Positions 11,872 through 30,443 of a DNA stretch of 37,313 nt are shown here, in pieces. The stretch lies in contig CALYZE010000021.1 in the NCBI GenBank assembly GCA_945607605.1, forward strand, positions 1-37,313. Direction: 5' to 3'. A program made the translations under genes and the position numbers. Position 1 is the stretch's first letter; each line of letters begins with the position of its first letter. The notes below the pieces were generated by a model. That model saw nothing but the letters and a program-made list of their open reading frames with translations. It was not told the origin of the DNA and did not search any database. The DNA is from an uncultured Bacteroides sp. (GTDB lineage Bacteria; Bacteroidota; Bacteroidia; Bacteroidales; Bacteroidaceae).

Positions 11872-12851
11872 AAATGAAGAAATTACTGAAAATTACGTTA
11901 CTGATTGGTTGTTTAACTATAGTAGTAGGATGCAATGCGCACTCTTCAAAGAGTGGTGAAACGAAGGAAACGTTGCCTGCTCTGAAAGTTTGTGGCACTC
12001 AATTGATGAATAGTGAAGGTGATACAGTAGTATTGCAGGGGGTCAGCTACGGTTGGCATCAATTTTGGCCTCGCTTTTACAACTCCTCTTCTGTGTCTTA
12101 TCTTGCAAAGGAATGGGGTGCTCAGGTTCTTCGGGCTTCTATGGGGGTAGATCTGGATAGTGCCTGTTATGTCTATCAGCCGGAGTTCGGCATAGAGTGT
12201 GTGAAGAAAGTAGTGGATGCAGCTATTGAGCATAATGTATATGTCATTATAGACTGGCATAGCCACCATCTGCTTCTGGAGGAAGCCAAAAATTTCTTTA
12301 CCCAGATGGCAACTCTCTATAAAGGAGTCCCTAATGTGATGTATGAAATCTATAATGAACCGGTAGAGGATAGTTGGGAAGAGGTCAAAGCCTACTCCAT
12401 TGAAATTATCAAAGCCATTCGTTCCATAGAGACGGATGCTATCATCTTAGTCGGTACTCCTCATTGGGCTCAGGATGTGCATTTGGCGGCTGATTCCCCA
12501 ATTACCGGAGTGAATAATATCATGTACACACTCCATTTTTATGCCAATACACACAAACAATATTTGCGTGATCGTGCAGATTATGCATTAAGTAAAGGCT
12601 TGCCTTTGTTTGTATCTGAATGTGCCGGTATGGAAGCGTCCGGTGACGGCATCATTGATAAAGATGAATGGAACAGCTGGCTGGATTGGATGCAACAACA
12701 TTCTATCAGCTGGGTGGCTTGGTCTGTGTCAGATAAAGATGAAACTTGTTCCATGCTTTATCCGTCAGCATCTTCCGAAGGTGTTTGGAAAGATAAGGAT
12801 ATGAAGGAGTGGGGGCATATTGTGCGTGAAACTCTGAAAGGAAGGAAATAG
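11868..12851 (+). CDS. GH5_2 endo-beta-1,4-glucanase, lipoprotein
   Basis: This is a 327-residue lipoprotein (lipobox VVGC, C22) with one GH5 domain. It follows the layout of Bacillus Cel5A-type subfamily 2 enzymes: LQGVSYGWHQFWP, DWHSHH, NVMYEIYNEP with acid/base E164, YTLHFYANTH, FVSECAGM with nucleophile E251, and SWVAWSVSDKDET. The activity is probably endo-cleavage next to beta-1,4-glucose in cellulosic or glucomannan backbones. The Trp-Gly that usually follows the nucleophile is replaced by Cys-Ala. Translation is coupled to the mannanase by a 4-bp overlap; a start at the next ATG (11874) is also possible. An endo-glucanase paired with an endo-mannanase fits a mixed Glc/Man backbone. 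Confidence 0.9.
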   Translation: MKMKKLLKITLLIGCLTIVVGCNAHSSKSGETKETLPALKVCGTQLMNSEGDTVVLQGVSYGWHQFWPRFYNSSSVSYLAKEWGAQVLRASMGVDLDSACYVYQPEFGIECVKKVVDAAIEHNVYVIIDWHSHHLLLEEAKNFFTQMATLYKGVPNVMYEIYNEPVEDSWEEVKAYSIEIIKAIRSIETDAIILVGTPHWAQDVHLAADSPITGVNNIMYTLHFYANTHKQYLRDRADYALSKGLPLFVSECAGMEASGDGIIDKDEWNSWLDWMQQHSISWVAWSVSDKDETCSMLYPSASSEGVWKDKDMKEWGHIVRETLKGRK

Positions 12852-16200: not shown

Positions 16201-16475
16201 CTATTTCTGACATTTATGTAGAGAATGCAGATTATTTCCGCCTGCAGAATTTGACGGTTGGTTACGACTTCAAGCGATTGTGGAAGAACTGTCCGTTCCA
16301 GCAACTACGTGTATATGCTGCTGCGCAAAACTTATTCACCATTACGGGCTACAAGGGTATGGATCCCGAAAATGGTCGTGCCATCAATAACAATGAACCT
16401 TGGGTGACGGGTGTGGACGTAGGTAACTATCCTATGCCTCGTACTTATATGTTTGGTGTTAATGTTAAATTCTAA
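13230..16475 (+). CDS. SusC-like TonB-dependent outer membrane transporter
   Basis: This 1081-residue outer membrane importer moves oligosaccharides into the periplasm using TonB energy, together with the SusD lid encoded next. After the signal peptide (cleavage near residue 29) comes a carboxypeptidase-regulatory-like domain (ITGTVSDAMGPVIGANIL to about 112). The SusC-type TonB box DEVVVMGYG is at 119-126. The plug domain holds PGVNIQAVSGQPG, PLYIIDGVSG and IERIDVLKDAASCAIYGSAA. The rest is a beta-barrel ending in the aromatic strand TYMFGVNVKF, the usual outer membrane terminus. No extra N-terminal signalling domain is present. The gene is 13 bp upstream of susD and has its own promoter and long leader. 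Confidence 0.97.
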   Translation: MNLNFRRTALLVGICSAVSLIYTPQLFAASIDATEAVQQAKKITGTVSDAMGPVIGANILEKGTTNGVITDMNGNFSLNVHPGATIVVSFVGYQPQEMVVGNQSSFNIQLKEDTELLDEVVVMGYGVQKKKLVTGATVEVKGEDIARLNTTQALGALQSQSPGVNIQAVSGQPGDGFKVTIRGAGTNGDTKPLYIIDGVSGDINNLNPADIERIDVLKDAASCAIYGSAAANGVVLVTTKQGKEGKIQVSYDGNIGWQDVYKMPDLLNAKQYMEVQNMVRYNSGAEPHDWSRFIDANLLAAYQNGSNEGSNFMEALRNENAVTTNHALNITSGTDRTKFSTGLGYQYQDGVFGNVAKSDYRRFTARMNSEHVIYRNDDGLDVVKIGENLYYQHIQKQGLDNGNQYGNMLSNMLRANPLVPIYNENGEYFGYEDLKNSGSEGWFNYNSYTTNPVASMMNGQSANNKSTNFGFNLSGWLEIQPIKNLVYRGQVNYNQSSWSWRAYLPVYKLNDQGDSRSIDQVTNQTGLGWGWSTTNTINYKFNLAKHDFDVLVGTEYGESRPDYGFSLNATATNSVFGDLDHAYMSFVKNNTGKATVSGKPYGDSRGMSYFGRLNYNFNETYMVSAIIRADGSSVFAPGKRWGYFPSFSAGWVVSNEKFMENAQRWLEFLKLRAGWGQNGNKNAVDAFAYQATFAYDAYSNYSFGNNKDGYTSGASPARLANEEITWETSEQMNIGLDARFLSGRLGLTFDLYEKQTKDLLLKVPVTPTTGFSEQLKNAGTVRNRGIELALNWNDRIGKDITYGINWNMAYNQNEVTEVNSTRKYNNGGNDLLSQGTGYMTRFEEGHAIGYFWGYKTNGVIQNQEDLAAYAATLKDGKAANSLQGAGLKPGDLKFVDVNGDGVINAEDKTDLGNPHPDVTMGLSLNFGYKGFDVSVTGFAALGQQVARSYRKFTDGEQENYTTEVYNYWHGEGTSNKYPLIARMNEGVNWQSISDIYVENADYFRLQNLTVGYDFKRLWKNCPFQQLRVYAAAQNLFTITGYKGMDPENGRAINNNEPWVTGVDVGNYPMPRTYMFGVNVKF

Positions 16476-16488
16476 AAATGATTACACA

Positions 16489-18276
16489 ATGAAAAAAATA
16501 ACCTATTTGTTGACTTCTGCATGTATTGCAATGGGCGTTGCCTCTTGTGATATTAATAATGTAGAAAATATGGGTGAACTGTCAACCGAAAACTTCCCGG
16601 TATCCGAAGCAGATGGTATTGCTGCTTTGGCGGGTATTTATCAGAACCTGAATGCAGTGCATGCCAATCCCCAGGAATCGTTTTTGTATTATGCACAGTT
16701 GGCCAGCGATGATGCATTAGGTGGCGGTGGAACGAATGATAAACTGATGCAGGCTATGGACTTGATCACCAACTACAATGCTGATATGACCAATAATTTC
16801 TGGGTACAGCGTTATCAAGGTATCAACCGTGCCAATACATTAATCAGCTCATTGCCCAATACCGCTATGAGCGATGACAGTAAAGCACAATTCCTGGGCG
16901 AGGCACTTTTCCTTCGTGCCTATTATCATTTTGACTTGGCCAGTATGTATGGCAATGTTCCTTTGGTAACGGTTCCTTCGGGAGATTTGGTTGTCCAGGG
17001 AGATGTATCCGTGCTCTATGGACAAATGTTGCAAGATTTGCGTGATGCTATTGAGATGATGCCCGCTGTTCGCAACACCGATGGACATGTAGATAAATAC
17101 ACAGCCGAAGCGTTATTGGCTCGTATCTTCTTGTTCTATACAGGTATGTATGGCAATGGTGCAACGTTGGCCGACCTTACCAGTACTACTTATAATCCAA
17201 TGCCTTCTGTTGCGCTGCCTGATGGTTCTACGTTGACCAAAGAAAATGTGATTGACTATTTGGATGACTGTGTGAACAACTCCGGTTATACCCTTGTGTC
17301 GGACTATCGCGCTTTGTGGGCGTATACCAATCGTTATACGGTAAATGATTACAAATATACGAAAGAACAAGGATTGAAATGGGCGGAAGATGACAATGCT
17401 GTTAATCCGGAATCGATGTTTGCCATCAAATTCAACAAATTAGCTTCATGGAATACGACGATTGGTTATGGGAATGGAATTGCCTTGCACGTGGGTGTAC
17501 GCGGAGGCCAAACCTATGAAAATACTTTCCCTTTTGGACAAGGTTGGGGAGCAGGTCCTGTAGCACCTAACTTGGTAGATGATTGGAAAAGTGCCGATCG
17601 TGAGGGTAAAGACATCCGTCGGGAAGCGACCATTCAAGATTGGACTACGCAGTCTACTTACACGTATGGTGGTTGGGCCGACTTTGTGCAGGAAACTGAT
17701 TTTTATGCCAAGAAATGGGCACCTATCTCTTGTGTGAATGATGGCTCGCAAGAAGAATACATCAAAGTCAGCGAGAATCCATACGTATGTTGTTTTGAAA
17801 ACTTAATGTATGGAGCTTCAGGTTGGGATCAAGGTGCCAATAATATGCAGTTGAACAATATACATGATTTGGTTCTCATCCGTTTTGCTGATGTGCTGCT
17901 GATGCAGAGTGAACTGAAGGAAGATGTGTCCGGCATCAATAGAGTGCGTAAACGTGCGGGCTTAGATCCGATTGGGGCGTATTCGCTTACAGCTTTGCAA
18001 AACGAACGTCGTTGGGAGTTGGCTCTTGAAGGTATTCGCTGGAATGACATTCGTCGTTGGCACATTGCTGCTGCTGCATTGTCTAAACAAGAAAACCAGC
18101 CGGTTTATTATTGCGGTCAGCCTGATAAAAACAAACCTCACAATGGCGGGTATGTGGCTCGATACAATGCTACTGCCGGTTTCCATAAAATGCCTGAAAG
18201 CCAAGTTGCCATTGGTAGTGTAGTGCAGAATGAAGGATGGACGGGTGCCGACAGTGAATACAACGGTTGGAAATAA
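16489..18276 (+). CDS. SusD/RagB-like surface glycan-binding lipoprotein
   Basis: This outer membrane lipoprotein pairs with SusC and captures oligosaccharides as the lid of the transporter. I chose the ATG at 16489 because it gives a clean signal peptide (MKKITYLLTSACIAMGVASC, lipobox C20). The frame is open to 16453, but that would overlap the susC end and add 12 unlikely residues. The family shows in the helical TPR-like segments (NNFWVQRYQGINRANTLI, FLGEALFLRAYYHFDLASMY, YTAEALLARIFLFYTGMYG) and the C-terminal RWELALEGIRWNDIRRW signature. The length of about 595 residues is normal. It follows SusC by 13 bp and is followed by a third surface lipoprotein. Confidence 0.96.
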   Translation: MKKITYLLTSACIAMGVASCDINNVENMGELSTENFPVSEADGIAALAGIYQNLNAVHANPQESFLYYAQLASDDALGGGGTNDKLMQAMDLITNYNADMTNNFWVQRYQGINRANTLISSLPNTAMSDDSKAQFLGEALFLRAYYHFDLASMYGNVPLVTVPSGDLVVQGDVSVLYGQMLQDLRDAIEMMPAVRNTDGHVDKYTAEALLARIFLFYTGMYGNGATLADLTSTTYNPMPSVALPDGSTLTKENVIDYLDDCVNNSGYTLVSDYRALWAYTNRYTVNDYKYTKEQGLKWAEDDNAVNPESMFAIKFNKLASWNTTIGYGNGIALHVGVRGGQTYENTFPFGQGWGAGPVAPNLVDDWKSADREGKDIRREATIQDWTTQSTYTYGGWADFVQETDFYAKKWAPISCVNDGSQEEYIKVSENPYVCCFENLMYGASGWDQGANNMQLNNIHDLVLIRFADVLLMQSELKEDVSGINRVRKRAGLDPIGAYSLTALQNERRWELALEGIRWNDIRRWHIAAAALSKQENQPVYYCGQPDKNKPHNGGYVARYNATAGFHKMPESQVAIGSVVQNEGWTGADSEYNGWK

Positions 18277-18315: not shown

Positions 18316-19152
18316 ATGAAAAGAATAATATTTGCAGTTTCCTTGTTGTCTTTGCTTTTTGCAGCCTGCGATCCTATCGTGGACGAAATTGAAAAGGGGG
18401 ACAATATTACCGCTGAAGAATTAACCGGTTCGTTTACCATCTCTGCCAAGAGTGAAGGAAATAATAACTTGAATTTCAATGTTTCTCCTACTCGATACAT
18501 CAAAGTATATGATGCAAGTTCTGACGTATGTGTAGCCATGGGTACCATGCCTACCTGTCAGATTGTGCCCCCTGCACGTAGCCTTGATTTTTATGTGACT
18601 ACAATCAATCAGGACGGTTCTATAACCAAGTCGGAAACGAAAAACATCCATGTAAGTGAGTTCACCGACTTACCTGCTATCTTTAATGACATCTTCGGTG
18701 ATGGTCAGGGTGGATTCACCACCCATACGTGGGTTTGGGATGATACAGCCAGCAGTGGTGTATGGGGCAATGGTGCTTATTTAGAGAATGAGGGTCCGGG
18801 TTGGTGGATTGTGCAACTAGATGGCATTGACGAACAAGCCACAGAAAAAAAACTGCCTAAAGATGGTAAGGATGGCTGGATGAAGATGAGTCTGACCGGT
18901 GTAGAGATGAGTCGCGGTGACAAAGGATCTGTCAACGTGAATGAAGAGATCGTGAAGGCCGGCTGGGATAAAGGTACTATGACCTTTAGCGGTACTTATC
19001 CATTGATGGGTATTCAACCCAATGGAGGAAATGCTCCCCAGTATGTTTATCATATTTTGAAGACTGACGGCGAACATCTTACACTTTGTGCAGGGGAGCC
19101 TGGAGCCGGCGATTGGGGAACAGCTTGGTTTTGGAATTTTAAGAAAAAGTAA
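18316..19152 (+). CDS. surface glycan-binding lipoprotein (SusE/SGBP-like position)
   Basis: This is a 278-residue lipoprotein with lipobox LFAAC (C18). An immunoglobulin-like N-terminal part (about 35-115) is followed by a domain rich in Trp, Gly and Asp (HTWVWDD, GPGWWIVQLD, GDWGTAWFWNFKKK). This looks like a beta-sandwich sugar-binding domain with exposed aromatic residues. I do not recognise a named family with certainty. Its position directly after SusD, 39 bp downstream and before the terminator, is where Bacteroides PULs encode the additional surface glycan-binding protein. It probably binds the target glycan at the cell surface and has no catalytic motif. It closes the susCD operon. 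Confidence 0.8.
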   Translation: MKRIIFAVSLLSLLFAACDPIVDEIEKGDNITAEELTGSFTISAKSEGNNNLNFNVSPTRYIKVYDASSDVCVAMGTMPTCQIVPPARSLDFYVTTINQDGSITKSETKNIHVSEFTDLPAIFNDIFGDGQGGFTTHTWVWDDTASSGVWGNGAYLENEGPGWWIVQLDGIDEQATEKKLPKDGKDGWMKMSLTGVEMSRGDKGSVNVNEEIVKAGWDKGTMTFSGTYPLMGIQPNGGNAPQYVYHILKTDGEHLTLCAGEPGAGDWGTAWFWNFKKK

Positions 19153-19619: not shown

Positions 19620-19627
19620 TACCTTTG
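19620..19627 (+). promoter_or_regulatory. Bacteroides -7 box upstream of the Rid-like gene
   Basis: TACCTTTG is an exact TAnnTTTG match 26 bases upstream of the ATG at 19654. It is the likely promoter for the operon that runs to about 24313 or 27680. No clear -33 element is seen. Confidence 0.55.
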
Positions 19628-19653
19628 CGGGTAATTAATTTCTTGCCAATGAT

Positions 19654-20775
19654 ATGAAATACACATCATACTCTTATCCTTCCGGAAAGGCTGAAGTGGC
19701 GACATTTACAGCAGACGATGGAGTGACCGAATATCACTTGATGATACATGCCACCGATCCGAAACAAACCTATCGGGAACAAATGAATGCTGTGCTGGAT
19801 GTCTATGCCACGGTACAAAAAAAGGAGCTTCCCGGAGCTGTGGCTGTCTTCAAAAGATATTTTCTGAGCGATGCCGCCAATCAGGCGGAACTGTTGCTGG
19901 CCGCTACAACAGATCTTTCCGATGGTGCTTTGTCGGTGGTAGAACAGCCGCCGTTGGATGGAACAAAAATAGCTTTGTGGGTTTATCTGCAAACCAATGT
20001 ACAGACTAGAGCGTTGTCTAATGGATGGTATGAAGTGAAACACGGAGCTTGCCGTCAGTTATGGATGGGAGGTAGTTTCAATCGCGCCGCCAATGCAGCG
20101 TGTCAGATGCAACTTCTACTCAATGATTATGTCAGGCAGTTGGTGGAGCAGGGGTGTTCTTTGGCCGACAACTGTTTACGTACTTGGATTTTTGTGCAGA
20201 ATGTAGACTCCAATTATGCCGGTGTGGTGAAAGCGCGTAATGACGTGTTTGGTACACAAAACCTAACGGAAAAGACGCACTACATTGCCAGTACGGGTAT
20301 TGGTGGACGTCACGCCGATCCCAAAGCCTTGGTGATGTTGGATGCTTTGGCTATGGAAGGGCTGAAGCCTGAGCAGATAAAACACCTTTATGCTCGTACC
20401 CATCTGAACCCTACTAGTGAGTATGGAGTCAGCTTTGAACGGGGCACGGCCGTGGATTATGAAGGTCGCAGGCTTGTGCTGATTTCCGGTACGGCAAGTA
20501 TCAACAATCGTGGTGAAATAGTGCACGCCGGAGATGTGCGCCAACAAACAGAACGGATGTGGGAGAATGTGGAGATGTTGCTGAAGGAGGCTGATTGCGG
20601 TTTTGAAAACATGGGGCATGTCATTGTCTACCTGCGTGATATAGCAGATTATACCGTGGTGAAGGAGATGTTTGACCAACGTTTCCCCGAGGTTCCCAAA
20701 ATTATAACCCTGGCTCCGGTTTGCCGTCCGGGGTGGTTGGTTGAGATGGAGTGTATGGCAGTCAGGAAACTTTAA
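19654..20775 (+). CDS. Rid/YjgF-superfamily protein, chorismatase (FkbO/Hyg5)-like
   Basis: This is a 373-residue soluble protein without a signal peptide. The second half carries Rid/YjgF-type segments: RTWIFVQNVDSNYAGVVKARN, LVLISGTASINNRGEIVHAG, VEMLLKEADCGFENMGHVIV, FDQRFPEVPKIITLAPVCRP and a C-terminal LVEMECMAVRKL. The order and spacing, with an N-terminal domain of similar size, recall chorismatases of the FkbO/Hyg5 type. Those hydrolyse chorismate and are built from two Rid-like folds. Whether this protein acts on chorismate, on an imine or enamine, or only binds a ligand cannot be decided from sequence. It is the first gene of the operon, 12 bp before the DUF4369-like lipoprotein, which ties it to the envelope genes that follow. 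Confidence 0.72.
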   Translation: MKYTSYSYPSGKAEVATFTADDGVTEYHLMIHATDPKQTYREQMNAVLDVYATVQKKELPGAVAVFKRYFLSDAANQAELLLAATTDLSDGALSVVEQPPLDGTKIALWVYLQTNVQTRALSNGWYEVKHGACRQLWMGGSFNRAANAACQMQLLLNDYVRQLVEQGCSLADNCLRTWIFVQNVDSNYAGVVKARNDVFGTQNLTEKTHYIASTGIGGRHADPKALVMLDALAMEGLKPEQIKHLYARTHLNPTSEYGVSFERGTAVDYEGRRLVLISGTASINNRGEIVHAGDVRQQTERMWENVEMLLKEADCGFENMGHVIVYLRDIADYTVVKEMFDQRFPEVPKIITLAPVCRPGWLVEMECMAVRKL

Positions 20776-20787
20776 TCAGTGAAGGAA

Positions 20788-21402
20788 ATGAAGATACGTT
20801 TCTTACTTCTTTGTTTAGGATGCTTCCTTTGGGGAGGTTGCGGAAATCAAGGACAGCATTATGTGATTGAAGGAACATTGCCGTCGGTAAGCTACGACGG
20901 GGAATGGATATACCTTGTGCCAATGGAGAATGCACACGGACGGGTAGATTCTGCAAAGATTACTGATGCTACTTTTACTTTTTCCGGAATAGGAGAAGAG
21001 ATGAAGGTGTTGCGTTTGCGCCCTCTTTTACGCATGCAGATTCAAGAACTGCTGGTAGTGACGGAGCCGGGACTCATTGGTGTAAAGGCTGATTCACTCG
21101 GCTCGGTAACAGGTACTCCACAGAACGATGCTCTTCAAAAATGGAAAGAAGGAAGAGAACGGCAGCAGATGGCCTATCGCTCCGTTCGAACAGGACTGCA
21201 ATCGGCCACCGGAAGAGATTCGCTGTTGCTGATGCAGCGTTATGACACCTTGAGAAAACAGGAGCAAGAGATGAATTTTCTCTTGATGAAAGAACAGAAA
21301 AACAATACGTTAGGGATTTTCGTGCAGAAGATGCTGCGTGGCTCTCTGACGGAAGAACAACAAAAGCTGTTGGATGAAAATCTGCCAAAGGAAATACATT
21401 GA
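20788..21402 (+). CDS. small lipoprotein with DUF4369-like domain
   Basis: This is a 204-residue lipoprotein. I chose the ATG at 20788 because it gives a compact signal peptide ending LWGGC (C18); a GTG at 20779 is in frame. The mature part begins HYVIEGTLPSVSYDGEWIYL and continues with RVDSAKITDATFTFSG. This is the beta-rich pattern of the DUF4369 domain found at the N-terminus of Bacteroidetes thioredoxin-like lipoproteins. No thioredoxin CxxC domain follows; instead there is a charged helical C-terminus (about 115-204), possibly coiled coil. It overlaps the next gene by 29 bp, which suggests coupled expression. The function is unknown; attachment to the periplasmic face or outer membrane is likely. 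Confidence 0.75.
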   Translation: MKIRFLLLCLGCFLWGGCGNQGQHYVIEGTLPSVSYDGEWIYLVPMENAHGRVDSAKITDATFTFSGIGEEMKVLRLRPLLRMQIQELLVVTEPGLIGVKADSLGSVTGTPQNDALQKWKEGRERQQMAYRSVRTGLQSATGRDSLLLMQRYDTLRKQEQEMNFLLMKEQKNNTLGIFVQKMLRGSLTEEQQKLLDENLPKEIH

Positions 21403-22840
21403 ATGGGCCTTGATAGGAATAGGCACCTTGATGCTATTCCTCTTTTTCTTTCGAATACTGCCCTATCATCTGTTCCACAGGGAGCAGACCTTGCTCTTTT
21501 TGTGTACCACCGAAACGGTTGCTGATTACTTGAAGCATCCCGCGGCATTGGCTTGTTTGTCAGGAGATTTCTTAACTCAATATTTTTATTACGAAGGAGC
21601 GGGACCGGCAATCATGGCAGGGGTACTGCTGCTTTGGGGAGTGGTTGTGTTCCGGCTGTTGCTGCCCTATATGGGACGTTGGGCTTGGCTTCCAACGGTG
21701 TTGGCGGTGTTCTGGGAGGGAGGAAGACAGTGTGGACTGGCATATCCGCTTTCTGGCACCATTGCTTTGATAGGTATCGGAGGTGTCCTGCTGCTGTGCC
21801 GTAACTGTTTGCAGCGTTCGTGGAAAACAGGCTTGCCACTCAGTGTGCTGTTGGTAGTGTCTGGCTATGGGTTATTTGGCTATGGACATTGGACATCACG
21901 GTGGTACGATACGCCCGACTTGGTGCGGGAATCTCTGTTAGCAGTAGATTCGGAAATGTACTTCGGCCGTTGGGACAAGGCCCGGAAACTGCTGGAGGAA
22001 GGCGAATATCATTCACCCTTTACGACCTATTATTATAACTTGTTGAATGCGGAGCAGAATCAGCTTCCCGACAGACTGACTGACTATTATCAACCTGCTT
22101 CTCAAGGTTTATTTTTGCCTGTAACGCCCCGTTCCAATTACTTCACTATCTATGCGGCCAATGAAGTTTGGTTTGCTTTGGGAGACATGACTATGGCGGA
22201 ACATGCCGCTATTTTGGGAATGATCTTTTCTCCACGGCACACTGGAGTAAGAGCTATTAAACGACTGGCGGAGATTAATCTGGTGAATGGAGATGAGGCT
22301 GCGGCGCTAAAGTATCTTCGGCTTCTGCAAAAGACAAAGTGTCACGATGAATGGGCAGAACGACGGATTCCCGGCAAACAGACGACTGAAGTACGTCAGT
22401 GGCTGGAAAGGAAACAACAAATGCTGCCTCTTACAGATACTTTGCGCTCTTCTGCCAATGTACCGCTTTCGCTTCGCCATCTGTTGCGGGCGAATCCGGA
22501 CAATGAAGCGGCGTGTCATTATCTCCTCTGTTTGGATTTGCTGAACAAAGACATCGGAGCTTTTGGAGAAGACTATCAGGAGTTTGCTGCGAAGAAGGTT
22601 TCTTCCAGATTGTATGAGGAGGGTTTATTGGTTTATCTTGCCGGCAAAAATGCCTCGCAAGACGAAGTGAAAAGTTGGAATCTATCACCTCAAGTGTTGG
22701 ATGCGTTCAGTGAATACACCCGGAGGTATGAGGCAAACGATGGGAATGGCACATCGTTGCAAGCTAACTATGGAAAGACTTATTGGTTTTATTTTCATTA
22801 CGCCACGAAGGAAGAAAAGAGCAACACTGAAAAGGAATAG
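21374..22840 (+). CDS. DUF6057-like membrane protein with helical-repeat C-terminus (copy A)
   Basis: This 488-residue inner membrane protein has no known function; I recognise it as DUF6057-like with moderate certainty. The first 170 residues contain about five hydrophobic segments (WALIGIGTLMLFLFFFRILP near the start, MAGVLLLWGVVVF, ALIGIGGVLLL, LPLSVLLVVSGYGLFGYG). The remaining 300 residues are soluble and helical, with TPR-like repeats such as RLAEINLVNGDEAAALKYLR and ACHYLLCLDLLNKDIGAF. It ends with YGKTYWFYFHY. Conserved features shared with copy B are the N-terminal LPYHLFHREQTLLFL, the RLAE-NL-NG repeat, the WNLSPQV segment and the terminal YW. It overlaps the upstream lipoprotein by 29 bp and lies 3 bp before its heme-propeller partner. 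It has about 100 residues fewer than copy B, mostly in the membrane region. Confidence 0.85.
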   Translation: MKICQRKYIEWALIGIGTLMLFLFFFRILPYHLFHREQTLLFLCTTETVADYLKHPAALACLSGDFLTQYFYYEGAGPAIMAGVLLLWGVVVFRLLLPYMGRWAWLPTVLAVFWEGGRQCGLAYPLSGTIALIGIGGVLLLCRNCLQRSWKTGLPLSVLLVVSGYGLFGYGHWTSRWYDTPDLVRESLLAVDSEMYFGRWDKARKLLEEGEYHSPFTTYYYNLLNAEQNQLPDRLTDYYQPASQGLFLPVTPRSNYFTIYAANEVWFALGDMTMAEHAAILGMIFSPRHTGVRAIKRLAEINLVNGDEAAALKYLRLLQKTKCHDEWAERRIPGKQTTEVRQWLERKQQMLPLTDTLRSSANVPLSLRHLLRANPDNEAACHYLLCLDLLNKDIGAFGEDYQEFAAKKVSSRLYEEGLLVYLAGKNASQDEVKSWNLSPQVLDAFSEYTRRYEANDGNGTSLQANYGKTYWFYFHYATKEEKSNTEKE

Positions 22841-22843
22841 AAG

Positions 22844-24313
22844 ATGAAAAATAGAAGAATGTGGTATTTAGTGTTTCTGTTTGGAGTGTTGTACAGTTTG
22901 CAAGCTTGTACGCCACATCCTGAATCTGTGAAACCTGCAGACCAGCCTTTGGTGATTTATCCGGAGTATCAGGAGGTAACCATTCCTTTCAATGTGGCTC
23001 CTTTGAATTTTTTGTTGAGAAACGAAGGAGTAGATGCAGTCAATGTCTCTGTGAAGGGAGCCTCGGATAGTCTGCAAATCAATGCACGCGGACATAAGGT
23101 GGTGTTTCCCTTGAAGGCTTGGCATGCGTTGTTGGAAGCGGAAAAAGGGGGCATGCTGGAGGTATCTGTCACTGCTCGTGTGGGTGGTCAGTGGTTGCGT
23201 TATCTTCCTTTTACCTGGCAGGTAGTGTCTGATAGGCTCGATGCTTATGTCAGCTATCGCTTGATAGAGCCCGGTTATGAGGTTTGGAATGCTTTGCAGA
23301 TACGCGAGCGTTGCTTGGAAAATTTTGAAGAGCGTGTGCTGGCGGATAATGGACAGACAGGAGGTAAATGCATGAACTGTCATGTGCATGGACAGAACAA
23401 TGGAAACCTTTCCATGTTTCACTTGCGTGGTGAGGGAGGGGGAACGATTCTGAACCGGAACGGTAAACTCCGTAAGTTGACATTAAAAAACGAACACATG
23501 GTATCTGCTGCCGTTTATGGTGATTTCCATCCCAACGGACGATATGGTGTGTTTTCTTCCAATATCATTCTTCCTATGTTTCACACTGAAAGTAATCGGC
23601 GTTTGGAAGTTTATGACACCGTTTCCGATTTGGCTATTGCTGACTTTGACGAAAATAGGATGCTTATTTCTCCTCTGACAGCAGATAGTGCAACCTTGGA
23701 AACCTTTCCTACTTTTTCTGCTGACGGTAAATGGGTTTATTATTGCTCAGCTCCGTGGGTTACGCTGCCGGACCAAGTGTCCCAACTCCGCTATTCACTC
23801 TGTCGTATTGCATTTGATGTAGAGAAAGGTGCATGGGGCAACCAGATAGATACACTTTGGGATGCTCGTTTGAATAAGGGATCTGTTTGCCATCCAAAGG
23901 CTTCACCGGACGGGCGTTATCTGCTCTATACCGTAGCCGATTATGGTACATTCCCCATCTGGCATCGCGAAACAGATCTTCAACTGATGGATTTACAGAC
24001 GGGAGCGATTGACTCTCTGTCGGTAGTGAATTCCAACCGTTCGGATACTTATCATAGTTGGTCATCCGATAGCCGTTGGTTTGCTTTTGCCAGCAAACGA
24101 GGAGATGGGCAGTACGGACGGATTTATTTTTCTTATTTGGATGCGGACGGAAAGGTGCATAAGCCTTTTGTTTTGCCTCAATCAGATCCAGAAAAAGACG
24201 ATTTAATGTTGAAATCTTATAACATACCCGATTTGTCGGCAACTCCCGTTCCGTTTGATGCTTCTTCTATCAAGCGAATCAATAAGGAGCTAAAAGCGGA
24301 AAGATTTGATTGA
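22844..24313 (+). CDS. CxxCH heme-c-type TolB/PD40 beta-propeller lipoprotein (copy A)
   Basis: This is a 489-residue lipoprotein (lipobox LQAC, C22). The mature N-terminus carries YPEYQEVTIPFNVAPLNF, a block also found in copy B, followed by a beta-sandwich region. At 176-180 the motif CMNCH matches the c-type heme attachment signature CxxCH, followed by FHLRG. From about residue 225 there are PD40/TolB-like propeller blades (DFHPNGRYGVF, TFPTFSADGKWVYY, PKASPDGRYLLYT, YHSWSSDSRWFAFASKRGDG). I infer a periplasmic or surface-exposed single-heme protein with a propeller platform. No enzymatic activity can be assigned. It follows DUF6057-like copy A by 3 bp, so the two are surely co-transcribed. 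The CxxCH could instead bind a metal or form a disulfide if heme is not attached. Confidence 0.85.
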   Translation: MKNRRMWYLVFLFGVLYSLQACTPHPESVKPADQPLVIYPEYQEVTIPFNVAPLNFLLRNEGVDAVNVSVKGASDSLQINARGHKVVFPLKAWHALLEAEKGGMLEVSVTARVGGQWLRYLPFTWQVVSDRLDAYVSYRLIEPGYEVWNALQIRERCLENFEERVLADNGQTGGKCMNCHVHGQNNGNLSMFHLRGEGGGTILNRNGKLRKLTLKNEHMVSAAVYGDFHPNGRYGVFSSNIILPMFHTESNRRLEVYDTVSDLAIADFDENRMLISPLTADSATLETFPTFSADGKWVYYCSAPWVTLPDQVSQLRYSLCRIAFDVEKGAWGNQIDTLWDARLNKGSVCHPKASPDGRYLLYTVADYGTFPIWHRETDLQLMDLQTGAIDSLSVVNSNRSDTYHSWSSDSRWFAFASKRGDGQYGRIYFSYLDADGKVHKPFVLPQSDPEKDDLMLKSYNIPDLSATPVPFDASSIKRINKELKAERFD

Positions 24314-24440
24314 GGAAACGGCTTTATCCGTCATTTCTCCTAGTATGAATGCGAAAGATGAGATTTTGAATGAAGCAGAGAATGGGAGGATGCGGTATCC
24401 ATTGATTGGATATATTTAAAGAAAATAAAAATTCAAAGAT

Positions 24441-26207
24441 ATGAATGTAATTCTGAAAAAAACATGGAAGATTGGACTGTCGATTCTTTTCGGTGTGGCG
24501 GTGCTACTTTTTTGGGGAAGGGTTTATCCGGCCCATCTTTCCTATCAGGAGCAGTTTCAGCTTTTCTTGTTCGATGCGGATTATTGGTGGGAACGGGTAA
24601 CAATTCCCGGTGGATGGGCCGATTATATTGCTGAATTTCTGATACAGTTTTATTATCATGTGTGGACGGGTGCTTGTATCTTGGCTATATTATATGTGTT
24701 GCTGCAACGTCTGGTTTGGCAATTGTTCAAGAGTCAGGGAGTGTCTGATGTCTATTATCCGTTAAGTTTTCTGCCCGTGCTCGTCTTGTGGTATTTCATG
24801 GGCGATGAGAATGTAATGTTATCACTGGTGGTGGCTTTGTTGCTAACACTGCTTGTTTCTTACTTGTATACCGATTTAAAAGGGAAATGGAAACGTCTTA
24901 CCTATGTGTTGATGGTTCTTCCATTACTTTATTGGACGGTGGGCCCCGCTCATTTTATTTTTATGGGGTGGGTGATGATACGCGAGTTTGGAATGAATCT
25001 CAAAAAACAGAATCTCTGGGGAGGCATAGGAATGTTTTTAGGCGTGGGGTTGTGGGGAGTCAGTGCCCCGCTGCTAGTCAGTATGTGGGTGCAATATCCC
25101 TTATATCGTTTGTGGATAGGCATCGGATATTACCGTTTCCCGATTGGTATGCCGTGGATAGGGGTAGGACTTGCAGTATTGCTGGTCGTCCTTCCTTTCT
25201 TATTAGCTGCCCTTCCTGACTTAAAGAAGAAACAGTCTTTATTTGGAATGTTATTGATGACAGCAGTAGGTTTGTTAGGTTATTATAGTGTGAATGTAGG
25301 TTGTGATTTAGATAAGGAAGAGGCCATGAAATATGATCAGTTGGTGCGTAACAAACAGTGGCAGTTAATCATAGACAAGGCAGAGCAGAAATCACCAACT
25401 TCACCTTTCAGTGTGACTTGTTTAAATCTTGCTTTGGGAAAGACCGGACAGATGGGAGATCGTATGTTTGAGTTTTATCAGAACGGAACGGAAGGATTGT
25501 TGCCCGAATTCCAGCGCGATTTCACTTCACCGTTACCTACCAGTGAGGCTTATTATCATTTGGGAATGATTAATACGGCACAGCGGTTTACCTTTGAAGC
25601 TATGGAAGCAATACCGAATTTTCGTAAAAGTGGACGTTGTTTCAAGCGTTTGGCAGAAACTAATTTGATTAACGGGCAGTATGAAGTTGCCGCCAAATAT
25701 CTGCGAGCATTGAGAAAAACTCTTTTTTATAAAGATTGGGCACAGGATGCCATGACCTATCTGTATAATGAAGAGAAAATCAATGCCCACAAAGAATGGG
25801 GTTGGTTAAGAGAGATACGATATACAGAAGATTTTTTGTTTAGCGACAGAGAGGTGGATAGCATGCTGGGGTTGCTGTATCAGCGCAACTATCGGAATCG
25901 CATGGCCTTTGAGTATATGTTGGCATACGTGCTACAACAGCGTGATCTGGAAACTTTCATGAAATATTATCCTTTAGGAAGAGATGCGGGTTACGATCAT
26001 ATCCCTCGTAGCTACCAGGAAGCATTGGTGTATGTATGGACGCAGACGCACAAAAACTTTCAAGGTATGCCTTGGAGCATTTCGCCTCAAGTGGTACAAA
26101 ATGTGATAGCCTTTGCACAAATCTATACCTCCCAGTCAAATGCCCAACAAATGTTACAGACGCGGTTTCGTGATACATACTGGAGTTATTTGTTAGTAAA
26201 AAAATAA
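24441..26207 (+). CDS. DUF6057-like membrane protein with helical-repeat C-terminus (copy B)
   Basis: This 588-residue inner membrane protein is paralogous to the one at 21374-22840. Roughly the first 290 residues are rich in hydrophobic segments, about eight to ten (for example SILFGVAVLLFWGRVYP, ACILAILYVLLQRLVW, VMLSLVVALLLTLLVSYLY, MFLGVGLWGVSAPLLVSMWV, MLLMTAVGLLGYYSVNVG). The last 290 residues form a soluble TPR-like helical domain (RLAETNLINGQYEVAAKYLR, YMLAYVLQQRDLETFMKYY) and end FRDTYWSYLLV. The shared motif after the first membrane segment is YPAHLSYQEQFQLFLF. The gap to the preceding gene is 127 bp without a good promoter or terminator, so it may belong to the same transcript. Its partner lipoprotein follows after 9 bp. 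The function is unknown. Confidence 0.85.
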   Translation: MNVILKKTWKIGLSILFGVAVLLFWGRVYPAHLSYQEQFQLFLFDADYWWERVTIPGGWADYIAEFLIQFYYHVWTGACILAILYVLLQRLVWQLFKSQGVSDVYYPLSFLPVLVLWYFMGDENVMLSLVVALLLTLLVSYLYTDLKGKWKRLTYVLMVLPLLYWTVGPAHFIFMGWVMIREFGMNLKKQNLWGGIGMFLGVGLWGVSAPLLVSMWVQYPLYRLWIGIGYYRFPIGMPWIGVGLAVLLVVLPFLLAALPDLKKKQSLFGMLLMTAVGLLGYYSVNVGCDLDKEEAMKYDQLVRNKQWQLIIDKAEQKSPTSPFSVTCLNLALGKTGQMGDRMFEFYQNGTEGLLPEFQRDFTSPLPTSEAYYHLGMINTAQRFTFEAMEAIPNFRKSGRCFKRLAETNLINGQYEVAAKYLRALRKTLFYKDWAQDAMTYLYNEEKINAHKEWGWLREIRYTEDFLFSDREVDSMLGLLYQRNYRNRMAFEYMLAYVLQQRDLETFMKYYPLGRDAGYDHIPRSYQEALVYVWTQTHKNFQGMPWSISPQVVQNVIAFAQIYTSQSNAQQMLQTRFRDTYWSYLLVKK

Positions 26208-26216
26208 GATGAGAAG

Positions 26217-27680
26217 ATGAAAAGAATAGTTATATATATGATGATTGCGGGGTGGCTGCTCGCTTGCAGCGATCCGGTGACTACTCCGGAACCTGTGGAT
26301 GAATGGCCGACTATGTATCCCGACTATGCAGGTGTGACAATTCCTGCAACCATTGCTCCCATGAATTTCAACTGTATCGGGAAAGAGTATGAGCGAGTGG
26401 ATGTGATGATAACTGGTGGGAAAACCGGAAAAGTTCATGTAAATGATAAAATCATATCTTTTCCACAGAATGATTGGCGTAAACTTTTGGAAGCGAACAA
26501 GGGGGACAGTCTTTTATTTACGGTCTGCCTCAAAACAGATGGTAAATGGATTCAATATCGTTCTTTTTCAATGTACGTTAGTCCTTATCCTATAGATTAC
26601 GGAGTAGTTTATCGCAAGATTGCGCCGGGATATGAGGTCTATAGCAAGATGGGTATTTATGAACGCGACCTTTCTTCTTTCAACGAGCGTGCTCTATTGG
26701 AGAATACGATGGTCCCAGGTATGTGTCTGAATTGTCATGCTTTCAATAAGACCCGCTCGAATGAGTTGAGTTTGCATATTCGTGGAAAGAATGGTGGTAC
26801 TTTGATGCAGATTAACGGAGAACGGGAAATGTTGGATACGAAAACGGATTCTACGCTCTCGGCAGGCGTCTATCCTTATTGGCATCCGAGCGGAAAGTAT
26901 ATCGCCTATTCGGTTAATGATACGCGTCAATCTTTTCATTCAGTGAAGGATGAGCGAGTAGAGGTTTTCGATTTGAAGTCGGATATCATCGTTTATCAAC
27001 CTGAGACACACGAATTATTGCTTTCACCTTTACTGCAGAAAAAGGAGGTTCTCGAGACATTTCCGGTATTCTCATCAGATGGATGTAAATTATATTTCTG
27101 TGCTGCGGAAGTCAAGTCGATACCGGCAGAGTATAAGGAAATTCGTTATAGCTTGTGCAGTATCGATTTTAATCCGCTTGATGGAACGTTTGGTGAGCGA
27201 ATAGATACATTGGTCAATGCGGAAACTATGGGAAAAAGTATCTCTTTCCCAAGACCTTCGTACGACGGAAGGTATATCATGTTTACCTTGTCAGATTATG
27301 GAAACTTTTCGATTTGGCACAAGGAAGCTGATTTGTGGCTATTGAATCTGCAAGATGGTAGCATGCGTCCAATGGAAGAAGTGAACAGTGAGGATACAGA
27401 AAGCTTTCACAATTGGAGCAGTAATTCTCGCTGGTTTGTTTTTAGTAGCCGTAGAGGCGATGGGCTTTACACACGTCTGTATTTGGCAAGCATAAATGAA
27501 AACGGCATAGTAGGAAAGCCCTTCCTATTGCCTCAAAAAAATCCTTTGGAGTATTATGACCGGTTGATTTATTCGTATAACGTTCCGGAGTTCGTGAGCG
27601 AACCGATTAAACTGGAAGGTTGGAAAGTAGAGCGGGATATCGTTGCAAAAAAACGGACTCGAGTAAGGGTGAGAGACTAA
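26217..27680 (+). CDS. CxxCH heme-c-type TolB/PD40 beta-propeller lipoprotein (copy B)
   Basis: This 487-residue lipoprotein (lipobox LLAC, C17) is paralogous to the one at 22844-24313 over its whole length. It has the same mature start, YPDYAGVTIPATIAPMNF. The heme-c-type motif CLNCH is at 170-174, followed by LHIRGKNGGTL, and the propeller blades are the same (YWHPSGKYIAYSVN, TFPVFSSDGCKLYF, PRPSYDGRYIMFTLSDYGNF, FHNWSSNSRWFVFSSRRGDG). The two copies have diverged in surface loops but keep CxxCH and the HxRG that follows, so these are probably functional. It is the last gene of the operon and points at the tRNA gene on the other strand. Its role is unknown; attached heme would require cytochrome c maturation in the periplasm. 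Confidence 0.85.
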   Translation: MKRIVIYMMIAGWLLACSDPVTTPEPVDEWPTMYPDYAGVTIPATIAPMNFNCIGKEYERVDVMITGGKTGKVHVNDKIISFPQNDWRKLLEANKGDSLLFTVCLKTDGKWIQYRSFSMYVSPYPIDYGVVYRKIAPGYEVYSKMGIYERDLSSFNERALLENTMVPGMCLNCHAFNKTRSNELSLHIRGKNGGTLMQINGEREMLDTKTDSTLSAGVYPYWHPSGKYIAYSVNDTRQSFHSVKDERVEVFDLKSDIIVYQPETHELLLSPLLQKKEVLETFPVFSSDGCKLYFCAAEVKSIPAEYKEIRYSLCSIDFNPLDGTFGERIDTLVNAETMGKSISFPRPSYDGRYIMFTLSDYGNFSIWHKEADLWLLNLQDGSMRPMEEVNSEDTESFHNWSSNSRWFVFSSRRGDGLYTRLYLASINENGIVGKPFLLPQKNPLEYYDRLIYSYNVPEFVSEPIKLEGWKVERDIVAKKRTRVRVRD

Positions 27681-27748
27681 TGCATAAAAAAAAGACAACC
27701 AAGAGTGGAAGCCTCCTAATTGCCTAATTCTAAAATCTTTCGACTTTG

Positions 27749-27822
27749 TAGCGGGACCCGGGTATGATCCGGGGACCTCATGATTATGAATCATGCGCTC
27801 TAACCAGCTGAGCTATCCCGCC
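27749..27822 (-). tRNA. tRNA-Met (anticodon CAT)
   Basis: A full cloverleaf can be drawn on the minus strand. The acceptor stem is GGCGGGA with TCCCGCT (the first pair is G-T), with T8 and A9. The D stem is GCTC/GAGC with loop AGCTGGTTA. The anticodon stem CATGA/TCATG has loop TTCATAA, a 5-base variable loop AGGTC follows, and the T stem is CCCGG/CCGGG, then discriminator A. CCA is not encoded. The anticodon stem lacks the three G-C pairs of initiator tRNA, so this is the elongator, or possibly tRNA-Ile with modified CAT. The T loop reads ATCATAC instead of the usual TTCRANN. Confidence 0.93.
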
Positions 27823-27843
27823 ATCATTTCTAGATTGCGGGTG

Positions 27844-27873
27844 CAAAGATATAGCTTTTTTTTAACTGCCAAA
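27844..27873 (-). promoter_or_regulatory. promoter of the tRNA-Met gene
   Basis: On the minus strand a TTTG at 27870-27873 is followed after 18 bases by TATCTTTG (27844-27851). This is a full Bacteroides -33/-7 promoter, 21 bases upstream of the tRNA 5' end. It is the best-formed promoter in the window besides that of dnaX. Confidence 0.75.
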
Positions 27874-28044
27874 ACTTTTAGAATAGTTTTTTTGATGTTT
27901 GGATTGTTGGTATTTGTAGAAGCCGTGAAAATAGAATAATTGTATTTTGAGATTTGTATAACATTATCAATGGGTTATGATGGCTGTAAAAGGCTTATCT
28001 AAATTAATTTAATGAATTATTTTTTCTAATTAGAAAAAAGTATT

Positions 28045-28052
28045 TATCTTGG
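28045..28052 (+). promoter_or_regulatory. possible -7 box for the START-like gene
   Basis: TATCTTGG differs from TAnnTTTG at one position and lies 26 bases before the ATG, the spacing seen at several other genes here. The remainder of 27874-28078 is AT-rich with no gene. Confidence 0.35.
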
Positions 28053-28078
28053 CAACGCATATAAAAGCAAAATAAACT

Positions 28079-28465
28079 ATGGACAGAAAAAAAGTACATT
28101 TAGAATTTCTCTTGAATGCGACTTCTAAAAGTATTCTTTGGACAGCAATAAGTACCCCTAACGGTTTGGAGGGCTGGTTTGCTGACAGGGTGCAATCTGA
28201 CGATAAGATCGTCACCTTCTTTTGGGGCAAGGCCGAAAAGCGCGGTGCAGAGATTATTGCCATGCGAGCCTATTCCTTTATACGTTTCCGTTGGTTGGAT
28301 GATGAAAATCCTCGCGAGTATTTTGAATTAAAAATGACAAATAGTGAACTTACTAATGATTTTGTATTGGAAATTACTGATTTCACTGATGCAGACGAAG
28401 TTGTCGATTTGCGTGAATTATGGGAGTCGCAGGTCGATACTCTACGTAGAACGTGTGGTTTTTAG
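28079..28465 (+). CDS. START-like domain protein
   Basis: This is a 128-residue cytoplasmic protein with no signal peptide or membrane segment. The pattern KVHLEFLLNATSKSILWTAI, then STPNGLEGWFAD, FFWGKAEKRGAEIIAM, YSFIRFRWLDD and a C-terminal helix LRELWESQVDTLRRTCGF is that of the small START/AHSA1-like proteins conserved in Bacteroidales. They have a hydrophobic cavity, but no ligand is assigned. The gene stands alone, with its own promoter and with a separate promoter for the downstream permease 43 bases after its stop. Confidence 0.82.
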   Translation: MDRKKVHLEFLLNATSKSILWTAISTPNGLEGWFADRVQSDDKIVTFFWGKAEKRGAEIIAMRAYSFIRFRWLDDENPREYFELKMTNSELTNDFVLEITDFTDADEVVDLRELWESQVDTLRRTCGF

Positions 28466-28507
28466 TTAACTTTCAATTAAAAATTTTACGTACTCCCTTT
28501 TTTATGC

Positions 28508-28515
28508 TACTTTTG
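28508..28515 (+). promoter_or_regulatory. Bacteroides -7 box for the LptF/G-type gene
   Basis: TACTTTTG is an exact TAnnTTTG match. It overlaps an in-frame GTG at 28515, which rules that codon out as the start and supports the ATG at 28542, 26 bases downstream. Confidence 0.6.
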
Positions 28516-28541
28516 TGTCCTTATTGCATGAAAAGAGTAAA

Positions 28542-30443
28542 ATGCTGCGCATAAAAAAGTTAGATATATTTATTCTAAAGAGCTTTTGCATGCTCTTTAT
28601 GGGCACTTTCTTCATCTGCCTCTTCATCTTCATGATGCAGTTTCTGTGGAAGTATGTAGATGAAATGGTTGGAAAAGGATTGGAGATGACTGTCCTAGCA
28701 CAGTTTTTCTTTTATTCGGCGTTGTCATTGGTTCCTGCCTCATTACCGCTGGCTATTCTGTTGGCTGCTCTTATCACTTTCGGAAACTTTGGTGAGCGTT
28801 TTGAACTGCTTGCTATGAAAGCTGCTGGTATTTCATTACTTAAAATCATGCGGCCGCTGATTGTTTTCATTTGTTTTATATGCTGTGTTTCCTTCTATTT
28901 TCAGAATGTGATTGGACCACAGGCCCAGACCAAATTATGGACTTTGTTGCTGTCTATGAAGCAAAAATCGCCGGAAGTGGACATTCCGGAAGGTGTGTTT
29001 TATGACGAGATAGACGGTTATAATCTTTATGTAAAGCATAAAAATCGTAATACGGGTATGCTTTATGATGTCTTGATCTATAATTTTGAAAAGGGATTTG
29101 AAAATGCACAGATTATCAAGGCTGATTCTGGCAGATTAGAGATGACGGCGGATAAACAACATTTATATTTACACTTGTTTAGCGGTGAGCAGTTTGAGAA
29201 TCTGAAATCTCAAAACATGAACCAGCAGAATGTTCCCTACCGTCGTGAAACCTTCCGAGAGAAACATGCAATCATTGAATTTAACTCAGACTTTAATATG
29301 ATGGACACCGGTATTATGAGTAACCAATCCAATAGTAAGGATATGAAGATGTTGCAGGCCGGTATCGATTCAATGACCATTCAAAATGACAGTGTGGGAC
29401 GAACTTACTATAAAGAAGCGATGTCTGGCACCTACAATGTCACGACTAGTCTGAGTAAAGAGGATACGATTAAGATTGAAAATGCTCGTTTGGGTGACTA
29501 TGATGTAGATAGCTTATTTCATGTTGCCACATTAATGCAGAAACAAAAAATAATCTCTGGTGCGGTGAGTCGCGCAGAAAGTGCCGGAAGCGATTGGAGC
29601 TTTAAGGGGTTTAATATCTCTCAAACCGATACCAGTCTTCGTCGCCACATGACTTCCTGGCATGAAAAGTTAACGCTTTCATTGGCATGTCTTATCTTCT
29701 TTTTTATAGGGGCTCCACTTGGAGGGATTATCCGTAAAGGCGGTTTGGGTATGCCGGTGGTTGTATCTGTTTTGATATTCATTATTTACTATATTATCAA
29801 TAATACGGGATATAAAATGGCTCGTGATGGAAAGTGGATTGTTTGGATGGGTATGTGGACCAGTACTGCAATCTTGGCCCCATTGGGAGCGTTTCTTACT
29901 TATAAATCCAATAATGACTCCGTGGTGTTGAATGCAGATGCCTATGTGAATTGGATCAAAAAGTTCATAGGGATTCGAAGTGTTCGTCACATGTTCCGCA
30001 AGGAGGTCATCATTCATGATCCGGAATATACCCGTCTTCCCGGAGATTTACGAACCTTATCTGAGGACTGTCGCATATATGCGGAAAAGAAGGCGTTAAG
30101 GCGTGCCCCCAATTACTTCAAATTGTGGATGAGCGGTACGCAAGACCTTGAGATAGTGGATATCAATGAACGTATGGAGGGTTTGATTGAAGAAATGTCT
30201 AATACGAAATCTATTCCACTGTTAATGGCGCTGAATAACTATCCCATCATTGCCGTTCATGCACATGTACGGCCCTTTCATAACTATTGGTTGAGTCTGC
30301 TTTGCGGGCTTGTTGTCCCAATCGGAATGTTTTTTTATTTCCGTATCTGGGCTTTTCGAATTCGTTTGAATAAAGATATGGAACGAATCATTCGAAATAA
30401 TGGGGAGATAGTCAAAATTATAGAAACCAATCAGAATATATAA
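28542..30443 (+). CDS. LptF/LptG-family permease (YjgP/YjgQ)
   Basis: This 633-residue inner membrane protein belongs to the lipopolysaccharide export permease family, which works with the LptB ATPase to pull LPS out of the inner membrane. The N-terminal membrane domain holds the family motif [26 protein letters not shown], split between cytoplasmic coupling helix and TM3. A periplasmic beta-jellyroll-like region (about 145-370) is followed by three more membrane segments ([61 protein letters not shown]). A C-terminal extension of about 150 residues, with a further membrane segment near residue 600, goes beyond the approximately 360 residues of the E. coli proteins. I recall such long forms from Bacteroides. 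The GTG at 28515 overlaps the promoter, so the ATG at 28542 is chosen. It lies 14 bp upstream of ribBA. Confidence 0.92.

Follow-up and report, generated by a model that had tools for sequence, protein, structure and literature searches.

What is a duplicated pair of genes for a DUF6057 membrane protein and a lipoprotein with a haem-c-type motif doing in a Bacteroides genome? The pair stands in 37,313 nucleotides from an uncultured Bacteroides sp. (assembly GCA_945607605.1, contig CALYZE010000021.1), a stretch that we call the window. We refer to the membrane proteins as M (MA and MB), to the lipoproteins as L (LA and LB), and to a chorismatase-family protein ahead of them as RID. The first-pass annotation had seen two gene pairs in the same order (21374-24313 and 24441-27680), led by RID and a DUF4369 lipoprotein, and had named the families from recall. 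The open reading frames (ORFs) lie at these places and Pfam agrees with all four names (DUF6057, PD40, DUF4369, Rid/chorismatase). The module consists of the following genes:

19654-20775, + strand: RID, chorismatase-family protein with a Hyg5-type signature (Pfam Ribonuc_L-PSP; profile alignment)
20779-21402, + strand: DUF4369 lipoprotein (Pfam PF14289 at 5.7e-12, its sole match)
21374-22840, + strand: MA, DUF6057 membrane protein with a shortened membrane part (Pfam, hydropathy)
22844-24313, + strand: LA, lipoprotein with CMNCH and a PD40 propeller, partner of MA (Pfam, motif, trees)
24441-26207, + strand: MB, full-length DUF6057 membrane protein (Pfam, hydropathy)
26217-27680, + strand: LB, lipoprotein with CLNCH and a PD40 propeller, partner of MB (Pfam, motif, trees)

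The six ORFs are tightly packed on one strand, with a largest gap of 127 bases between LA and MB. LA and LB share 38% identity, MA and MB 31%, and the DUF4369 lipoprotein has no Pfam-recognised thioredoxin domain.

First, we consider whether M and L belong together. They were followed in 236 Bacteroidales genomes, in a class-wide sample of 197 genomes and in the 80 loci nearest to the window; the scans scored at most five or six candidates per genome, and one L match (G347 C6 109530) was left out. Full-length L was taken as 430-660 amino acids (aa), a range that excludes 15 of the 237 L-labelled ORFs, and after five copies identical over the last 400 residues had been dropped, 217 full-length L proteins were kept. 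The L profile at 1e-20 matches 33 of the 236 Bacteroidales genomes, 31 of them with full-length L, and exactly the same 31 genomes have DUF6057 matches; the DUF6057 protein of a 32nd genome (G129) is partial only. In the class-wide sample, five of 197 genomes exceed the DUF6057 cut-off, and three of the five (G000, G155, G099) have L as well. In the 80 nearest loci, 150 of 153 full-length L have an M beside them on the same strand. A same-strand M adjoins 57 of the 67 full-length L in the 236-genome sample, where one more L has its M on the opposite strand and nine stand alone, as do eight of the 64 full-length M. Homologues commonly found alone, which the first-pass annotation had named as evidence against its proposal, are thus not the rule for either family.

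Over 184 pairs, the M tree correlates with the L tree at r 0.93, compared with a mean of 0.37 and a maximum of 0.54 in 500 trials that swapped partners within a locus, a null that controls for species. By cluster, A/A and B/B combinations account for 151 of the 184 pairs and crossed ones for none, the remainder falling in other clusters. These matching trees and the lack of crossed pairs indicate that each M has its own dedicated L, as had been argued earlier from duplication and co-retention, and a physical M-L complex is quite likely. A recent tandem duplication was rejected because the A and B pairs form separate clusters in the trees. Of the 78 loci with pairs, 46 have both clusters; these loci span families and include Bacteroides, Parabacteroides, Prevotella and Prolixibacteraceae. 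The A/B split thus seems to predate these groups, and transfer between groups is possible. B. rodentium and B. muris are among the gut Bacteroides with the module.

Next, we turn to L and its motif. Pfam recognises PD40 in both LA and LB, each of which has a CxxCH motif, and the haem-c-type motif noticed earlier is kept as CxNCH in 216 of the 217 full-length L. H174 and both motif cysteines are invariant in L bar one protein, and Y132, R133, R150, R189 and H398 of LB are conserved to at least 98% across L. Judged from the alignment only, the histidines H398 (99%), H368 (92%) and H187 (82%) are candidates for a distal axial ligand. A ResB-family match, pointing to haem-c maturation, occurs in 31 of 31 L genomes compared with 137 of 205 others (Fisher 2e-5, in a test that ignores kinship). 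Furthermore, in the genome of the window a CcsA-family gene stands close to two ORFs that carry four CxxCH motifs apiece (two and three ORFs away; L199), a set resembling NrfHA. Taken together, L probably binds haem c.

The lipobox cysteine is present in 97% of full-length L. Acidic residues after the lipid cysteine are the rule for surface export, and such a signal (at least two D/E at +2 to +7) was seen in 32 of 186 L compared with 46 of 50 SusD, 29 of 33 SusX (the small lipoprotein beside SusD) and 2 of 46 DUF4369 proteins, in a lipobox search that failed for 51 of 237 L ORFs and at times chose the wrong cysteine. Since the acidic signal of SusD is mostly absent from L, L probably faces the periplasm. 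TolB is the nearest named profile for all 53 L members scanned; its equivalog cut-off of 343 bits is far above the window proteins (28.1 and 18.9 bits), and L was therefore rejected as a TolB. Solved relatives of L or M are confined to TolB-like and seemingly chance matches in the PDB. Loci L120, L122, L133 and L134 encode larger PD40 proteins of L-like type (563-916 aa) in which the motif is CGNCH or CANCH, and two of these proteins directly adjoin RID.

MA and MB are full members of DUF6057, scoring 448 and 671 bits where PF19529 requires 29.8 (E 6.8e-134 and 3e-201). A simple hydropathy scan finds three hydrophobic segments in MA and seven in MB, and seven is the commonest count in M (68 of 184). 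MB ends in a soluble domain of about 300 aa. Charge bias places the first loop of M outside, so that the C-terminal domain of a seven-segment M is predicted to lie outside as well. MA aligns with the DUF6057 model at 2-168 and 270-569 and so lacks some 100 positions in the membrane region. Eight near relatives have a shorter M of 483-489 aa and a longer one of 584-600 aa, and one 415-aa M among near relatives sits at a contig end; the shortening is not general, because the A-type M of locus L008 has 545 aa. Of the TPR-like tail described earlier for M, a match to TPR_14 can be found, with an E of 0.0037 that falls short of the Pfam cut-off. At loci L169, L197 and L200, short DUF6057 proteins (385-400 aa) have no adjoining L, and in each of three genomes their genes come after a larger gene that is conserved between the loci; they are perhaps a separate DUF6057 branch.

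What RID contributes can be approached through its family and its neighbours. Its profile matches the chorismatases Hyg5 and FkbO (5ag3 at 3.8e-35, 4bps at 4.3e-25), and it stays under the NCBIfam FkbO/Hyg5 cut-off (42.5 versus 325 bits). G215, G279, C357 and the catalytic E364, positions assigned by hand from the structure-profile alignment, are invariant in 21 aligned sequences. Two glycines and a cysteine with the catalytic glutamate are the signature of the 3-hydroxybenzoate (Hyg5) type according to the available excerpt of the source (PMC7170507). Hence, RID probably turns chorismate into 3-hydroxybenzoate. RID is present in 30 of 31 L genomes compared with 17 of 205 others. Among 49 RID genes, 29 have a CxxCH gene no more than five genes away, against 4 of 124 background genes; the latter value is somewhat too low, as the background context held 5.3 neighbour genes on average and that of RID 8.4, and rescaling to the RID context raises it to about 5%, still far under 29 of 49. 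The 29 cases comprise 13 di-haem/PSCyt genes, seven hydrazine-synthase-like genes, eight L or L-like genes and one probably spurious ORF (L129). Without the last two groups, 20 cases remain in which the tie of RID to cytochromes does not involve L. The other 20 of the 49 RID genes have no CxxCH gene nearby; CcsBA is no more than five genes away in three of them.

The L083 operon encodes a porin, an imelysin, a di-haem oxidoreductase, a second porin, a PSCyt1-like protein, RID and CcsBA. Porins, imelysin, di-haem oxidoreductase, a PSCyt1-like lipoprotein and RID were observed together at L083, L084, L089, L090, L091, L096, L104, L105 and L112, and several of these nine operons carry a fused CcsBA. 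A different arrangement occurs at L093, L094, L100 and L126 (also L099, L130 and L131), where operons combine RID with a propeller-dihaem protein resembling hydrazine synthase beta/gamma, a small protein and a protein with the middle domain of hydrazine synthase alpha; the latter domain (PF18582 at 2.4e-37) is fused to an FGE-sulfatase-like domain at L093, and CcsBA lies near these operons at L093, L094 and L126. At L101 and L128, RID adjoins DUF1501-like genes, with one DUF1501 match, and its other neighbours there look by sequence like families that often accompany planctomycete-type cytochromes.

The genes upstream of the module suggest what the M-L pairs are attached to:

3340-5640, + strand: GH3 (Pfam)
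5641-8133, + strand: GH2 (Pfam)
8315-9202, + strand: AraC regulator (Pfam)
9271-10551, + strand: CE7/AXE1 esterase (Pfam)
10582-11871, + strand: first GH5 (Pfam E 5.9e-4, under the Pfam cut-off)
11868-12851, + strand: second GH5 (Pfam)
13230-16475, + strand: SusC (Pfam, NCBIfam; TIGR04056 at 1.3e-272 for the SusC/SusD pair)
16453-18276, + strand: SusD (Pfam, NCBIfam)
18316-19152, + strand: SusX, small lipoprotein beside SusD (no Pfam match; kept beside SusD in relatives)

The window thus has the marks of a polysaccharide utilization locus (PUL), namely adjoining SusC and SusD with GH3, GH2, CE7, two GH5 (one of them sub-cut-off) and AraC. Relatives of GH26 and GH130 seeds were found in eight of the 80 nearest loci, 3' of the module in L004, L007, L008, L019, L023, L027 and L062 and divergent in L075; GH3 or small ORFs may separate them from the module. 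All eight loci have a sugar transporter and seven have an epimerase. Apart from the epimerase, the beta-mannan locus of B. cellulosilyticus and B. uniformis includes these enzymes in the accessible parts of its descriptions (PMC13357471, PMC13276840, PMC5238381), and the epimerase is placed outside the locus in one of these excerpts (PMC13276840). In addition, the window enzymes GH5, GH5 and CE7 (327, 429 and 426 aa) resemble in length those of a clone that is akin to a PUL of B. uniformis (GH5_2 of 326, GH5_7 of 430 and CE7 of 427 aa; PMC5238381). Because the upstream genes and the GH26, GH130 and transporter genes of relatives match the described beta-mannan locus, we take the block 3340-27680 to be a hemicellulose PUL that closes with the module, and its substrate is probably beta-mannan. 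A plain envelope system unconnected with glycans was set aside because of the PUL.

Among the 80 nearest loci, 46 have SusC or SusD, 48 DUF4369, 23 RID and 61 two or more L-labelled ORFs. A census of unlabelled neighbours covered 93 of 151 neighbours, taken with loci in number order up to a residue limit and at most 1100 aa long, and as controls 93 of 167 genes at RID loci that have neither M nor L. GH10 (5), SASA esterase (3), GH5 (3), SusD (3) and GH43 (2) appear among the 25 commonest of 128 neighbour families, and none of the five is among the 25 commonest of 131 families for the 93 control genes, where GH92 and GH95 occur once each. The PUL setting and the cytochrome operons of RID relatives had not been connected with the module in the first-pass annotation.

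RID to LB is probably a single transcription unit, flanked as follows:

19620-19628, + strand: TACCTTTGC, like the Bacteroidetes -7 promoter box, 25 bases 5' of the RID start codon
27748-27822, - strand: tRNA-Met, bounding the block (Rfam)

This reading is based on TACCTTTGC being the only promoter-box-like site on the + strand in a gap between the stretch just ahead of RID and the end of LB. The start at 19620 given in the first-pass annotation takes in this site. Sites of this type, judged by the Bacteroidetes -7 consensus, number 17 in the window against 7.5 expected. A general promoter scan came close to chance (18 versus 16.6 expected) and was discarded; terminator-like sites number 15 against 8.1 expected, and a tRNA was the sole match of the Rfam scan. 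Two genus-mates have tRNA-Met, START_2, LptF and ribB together and have neither the block at this place nor any match to the L or DUF6057 profile. As these neighbours are kept in genus-mates without the block, 27680-30443 in the window, where the block ends beside tRNA-Met, might be a site of gain or loss.

How might the module work? We propose that each M-L pair forms a redox unit in the periplasm and belongs to a hemicellulose PUL. L would be a lipoprotein with a TolB-like PD40 propeller and one haem c bound covalently through CxNCH, probably held at the periplasmic face of a membrane. M would be its dedicated inner-membrane partner, with about seven membrane segments and a periplasmic C-terminal domain on which L docks. 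The pair might link the inner membrane with the Sus-type uptake machinery by passing on electrons, or else a redox or ligand state, and RID might supply an aromatic product to the unit. As a whole we hold this reading to be plausible, a little short of an even chance, and the relay taken by itself is a more tentative suggestion. The sequences show the pairing, the strict joint inheritance, the kept motif, the PUL setting of the window and haem-c maturation genes, and from these we infer haem attachment, M-L contact, the periplasmic side and, with most reserve, the relay. Redox sensing or electron transfer had been raised before as one possibility, and here too it is something we infer.

Several observations weigh against the proposed redox unit. 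The Pfam families listed for 53 L proteins at E up to 10 (25 of 43) include no cytochrome domain, and single L members give weak cytochrome- or cupredoxin-type matches in NCBIfam (PsbV2 at 0.07, rusticyanin at 0.014). As such matches are absent or weak, any haem pocket in L would not be a classic cytochrome c fold. M shows neither a histidine pair conserved in the manner of haem b ligands nor a quinone site that could be recognised. ResB is widespread anyway, which makes its presence in L genomes weak evidence. A full-length L at L189 (5062-6459) has lost CxNCH and has no adjoining M. Finally, SusC or SusD was found at just 15 of 60 M/L loci in the 236-genome sample (L135-L196), where stretches are short and divergent SusD is missed.

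The best-surviving alternative, which we judge somewhat unlikely, is a structural or glycan-handling unit in which the propeller binds a ligand or partner and a haem or metal at CxNCH stabilises the fold, with no electron transfer. PD40 propellers often bind peptides or partners, and the TolB likeness of L and the link of the module with hemicellulose genes would suit such a role. However, the retention of CxNCH in all but one of the full-length L, and a RID neighbour that tracks cytochromes elsewhere, both point to redox chemistry. It is also unlikely that the pair is a redox or ligand sensor in which M reads the haem state of L and signals to gene control or uptake. A lone M at L163 adjoins a periplasmic-binding/SpoIIE protein whose relatives lie near M in L060 and L159, and another lone M at L113 adjoins a putative regulator, by the look of its sequence presumably a hybrid two-component one, and then RID. 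On the other hand, no signalling domain was recognised in M among the 25 of 43 Pfam families listed, the PUL already has its own AraC regulator, and in the 80 nearest loci fewer than half of the pairs have an AraC-like gene nearby, as searched with two regulator seeds.

A reading of CxNCH as a zinc site or disulfide, which would fit a short motif standing alone in a protein that matches no cytochrome domain, seems quite improbable: H174 is as invariant as the cysteines, every L genome has ResB, and RID is linked with di-haem operons. M as a GT-C-type glycosyltransferase with L as glycosylation accessory is very improbable, since the conserved E37-Q38 in the first outside loop and the TPR-like tail, features that recall GT-C enzymes, are opposed by an hhalign probability of 1% against fragments (711-741 aa) of 24 TMEM260-like Bacteroidales proteins (the sole GT-C family compared, in which the reading found no support), by the lack of GT-C in the Pfam families listed for 44 M proteins (25 of 43), and by none among six PDB matches of M.

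To return to the redox unit, RID is common to the M-L PULs, the di-haem/imelysin/porin operon and the hydrazine-synthase-like proteins. For this reason a chorismate-derived aromatic, 3-hydroxybenzoate or its product, could serve several unrelated families of periplasmic c-type haem proteins in Bacteroidales as cofactor, as ligand or as a diffusible mediator; in that case a new periplasmic redox chain would be linked with fibre uptake. We consider this extension speculative and rather unlikely. The linkage of a chorismatase-type gene with three kinds of cytochrome gene set raises the questions of which product is made and which haem protein needs it.

PULs are seen as an outer-membrane uptake system with enzymes and a regulator. 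If the proposal is true, a conserved, ancient and often multi-copy pair of haem-c lipoprotein and membrane protein, located at or close to hemicellulose PULs, adds a redox part to PULs in anaerobes, and DUF6057 gains a testable role. The first-pass annotation had called the system undescribed; among open-licence papers, none was found with the term DUF6057, on a chorismatase with Bacteroides, on SusC with a haem lipoprotein, or on hydrazine synthase homologues with imelysin or CcsBA, and searches for a c-type cytochrome with a PUL or TolB with SusC gave no title on the module among the papers listed. PULs, cytochromes and chorismatases are known kinds, and it is their combination and the M-L pair that appear undescribed in the literature found.

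How does the module compare with known systems? The Pfam entry of DUF6057 is without function, and neither a dedicated partner with a haem motif nor a PUL setting is stated in the literature found. The module shares GH3, GH5, CE7 and SusC/D in the window, and GH26, GH130 and an MFS transporter in relatives, with beta-mannan PULs as far as the accessible parts of the reports go (PMC13357471, PMC13276840). The terms cytochrome and TolB are absent from the main text of both papers (PMC13357471, PMC13276840), and two hypothetical proteins are part of the B. cellulosilyticus beta-mannan locus in the excerpt available (PMC13276840). L resembles TolB in its PD40 repeats and differs in being a lipoprotein with CxNCH, with no Tol-Pal gene recognised beside it in the window. 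Like hydrazine synthase subunits, L joins a haem-c motif and a propeller. Cytochrome cd1 nitrite reductase is another such protein. Membership of L in the hydrazine synthase alpha family was rejected at a profile probability of 1.8% against alpha-like proteins, and beta/gamma-like proteins resemble L in the propeller part only (79.9%). Compared with Hyg5 and FkbO, RID differs in its company, standing with PUL genes here and often in cytochrome operons elsewhere.

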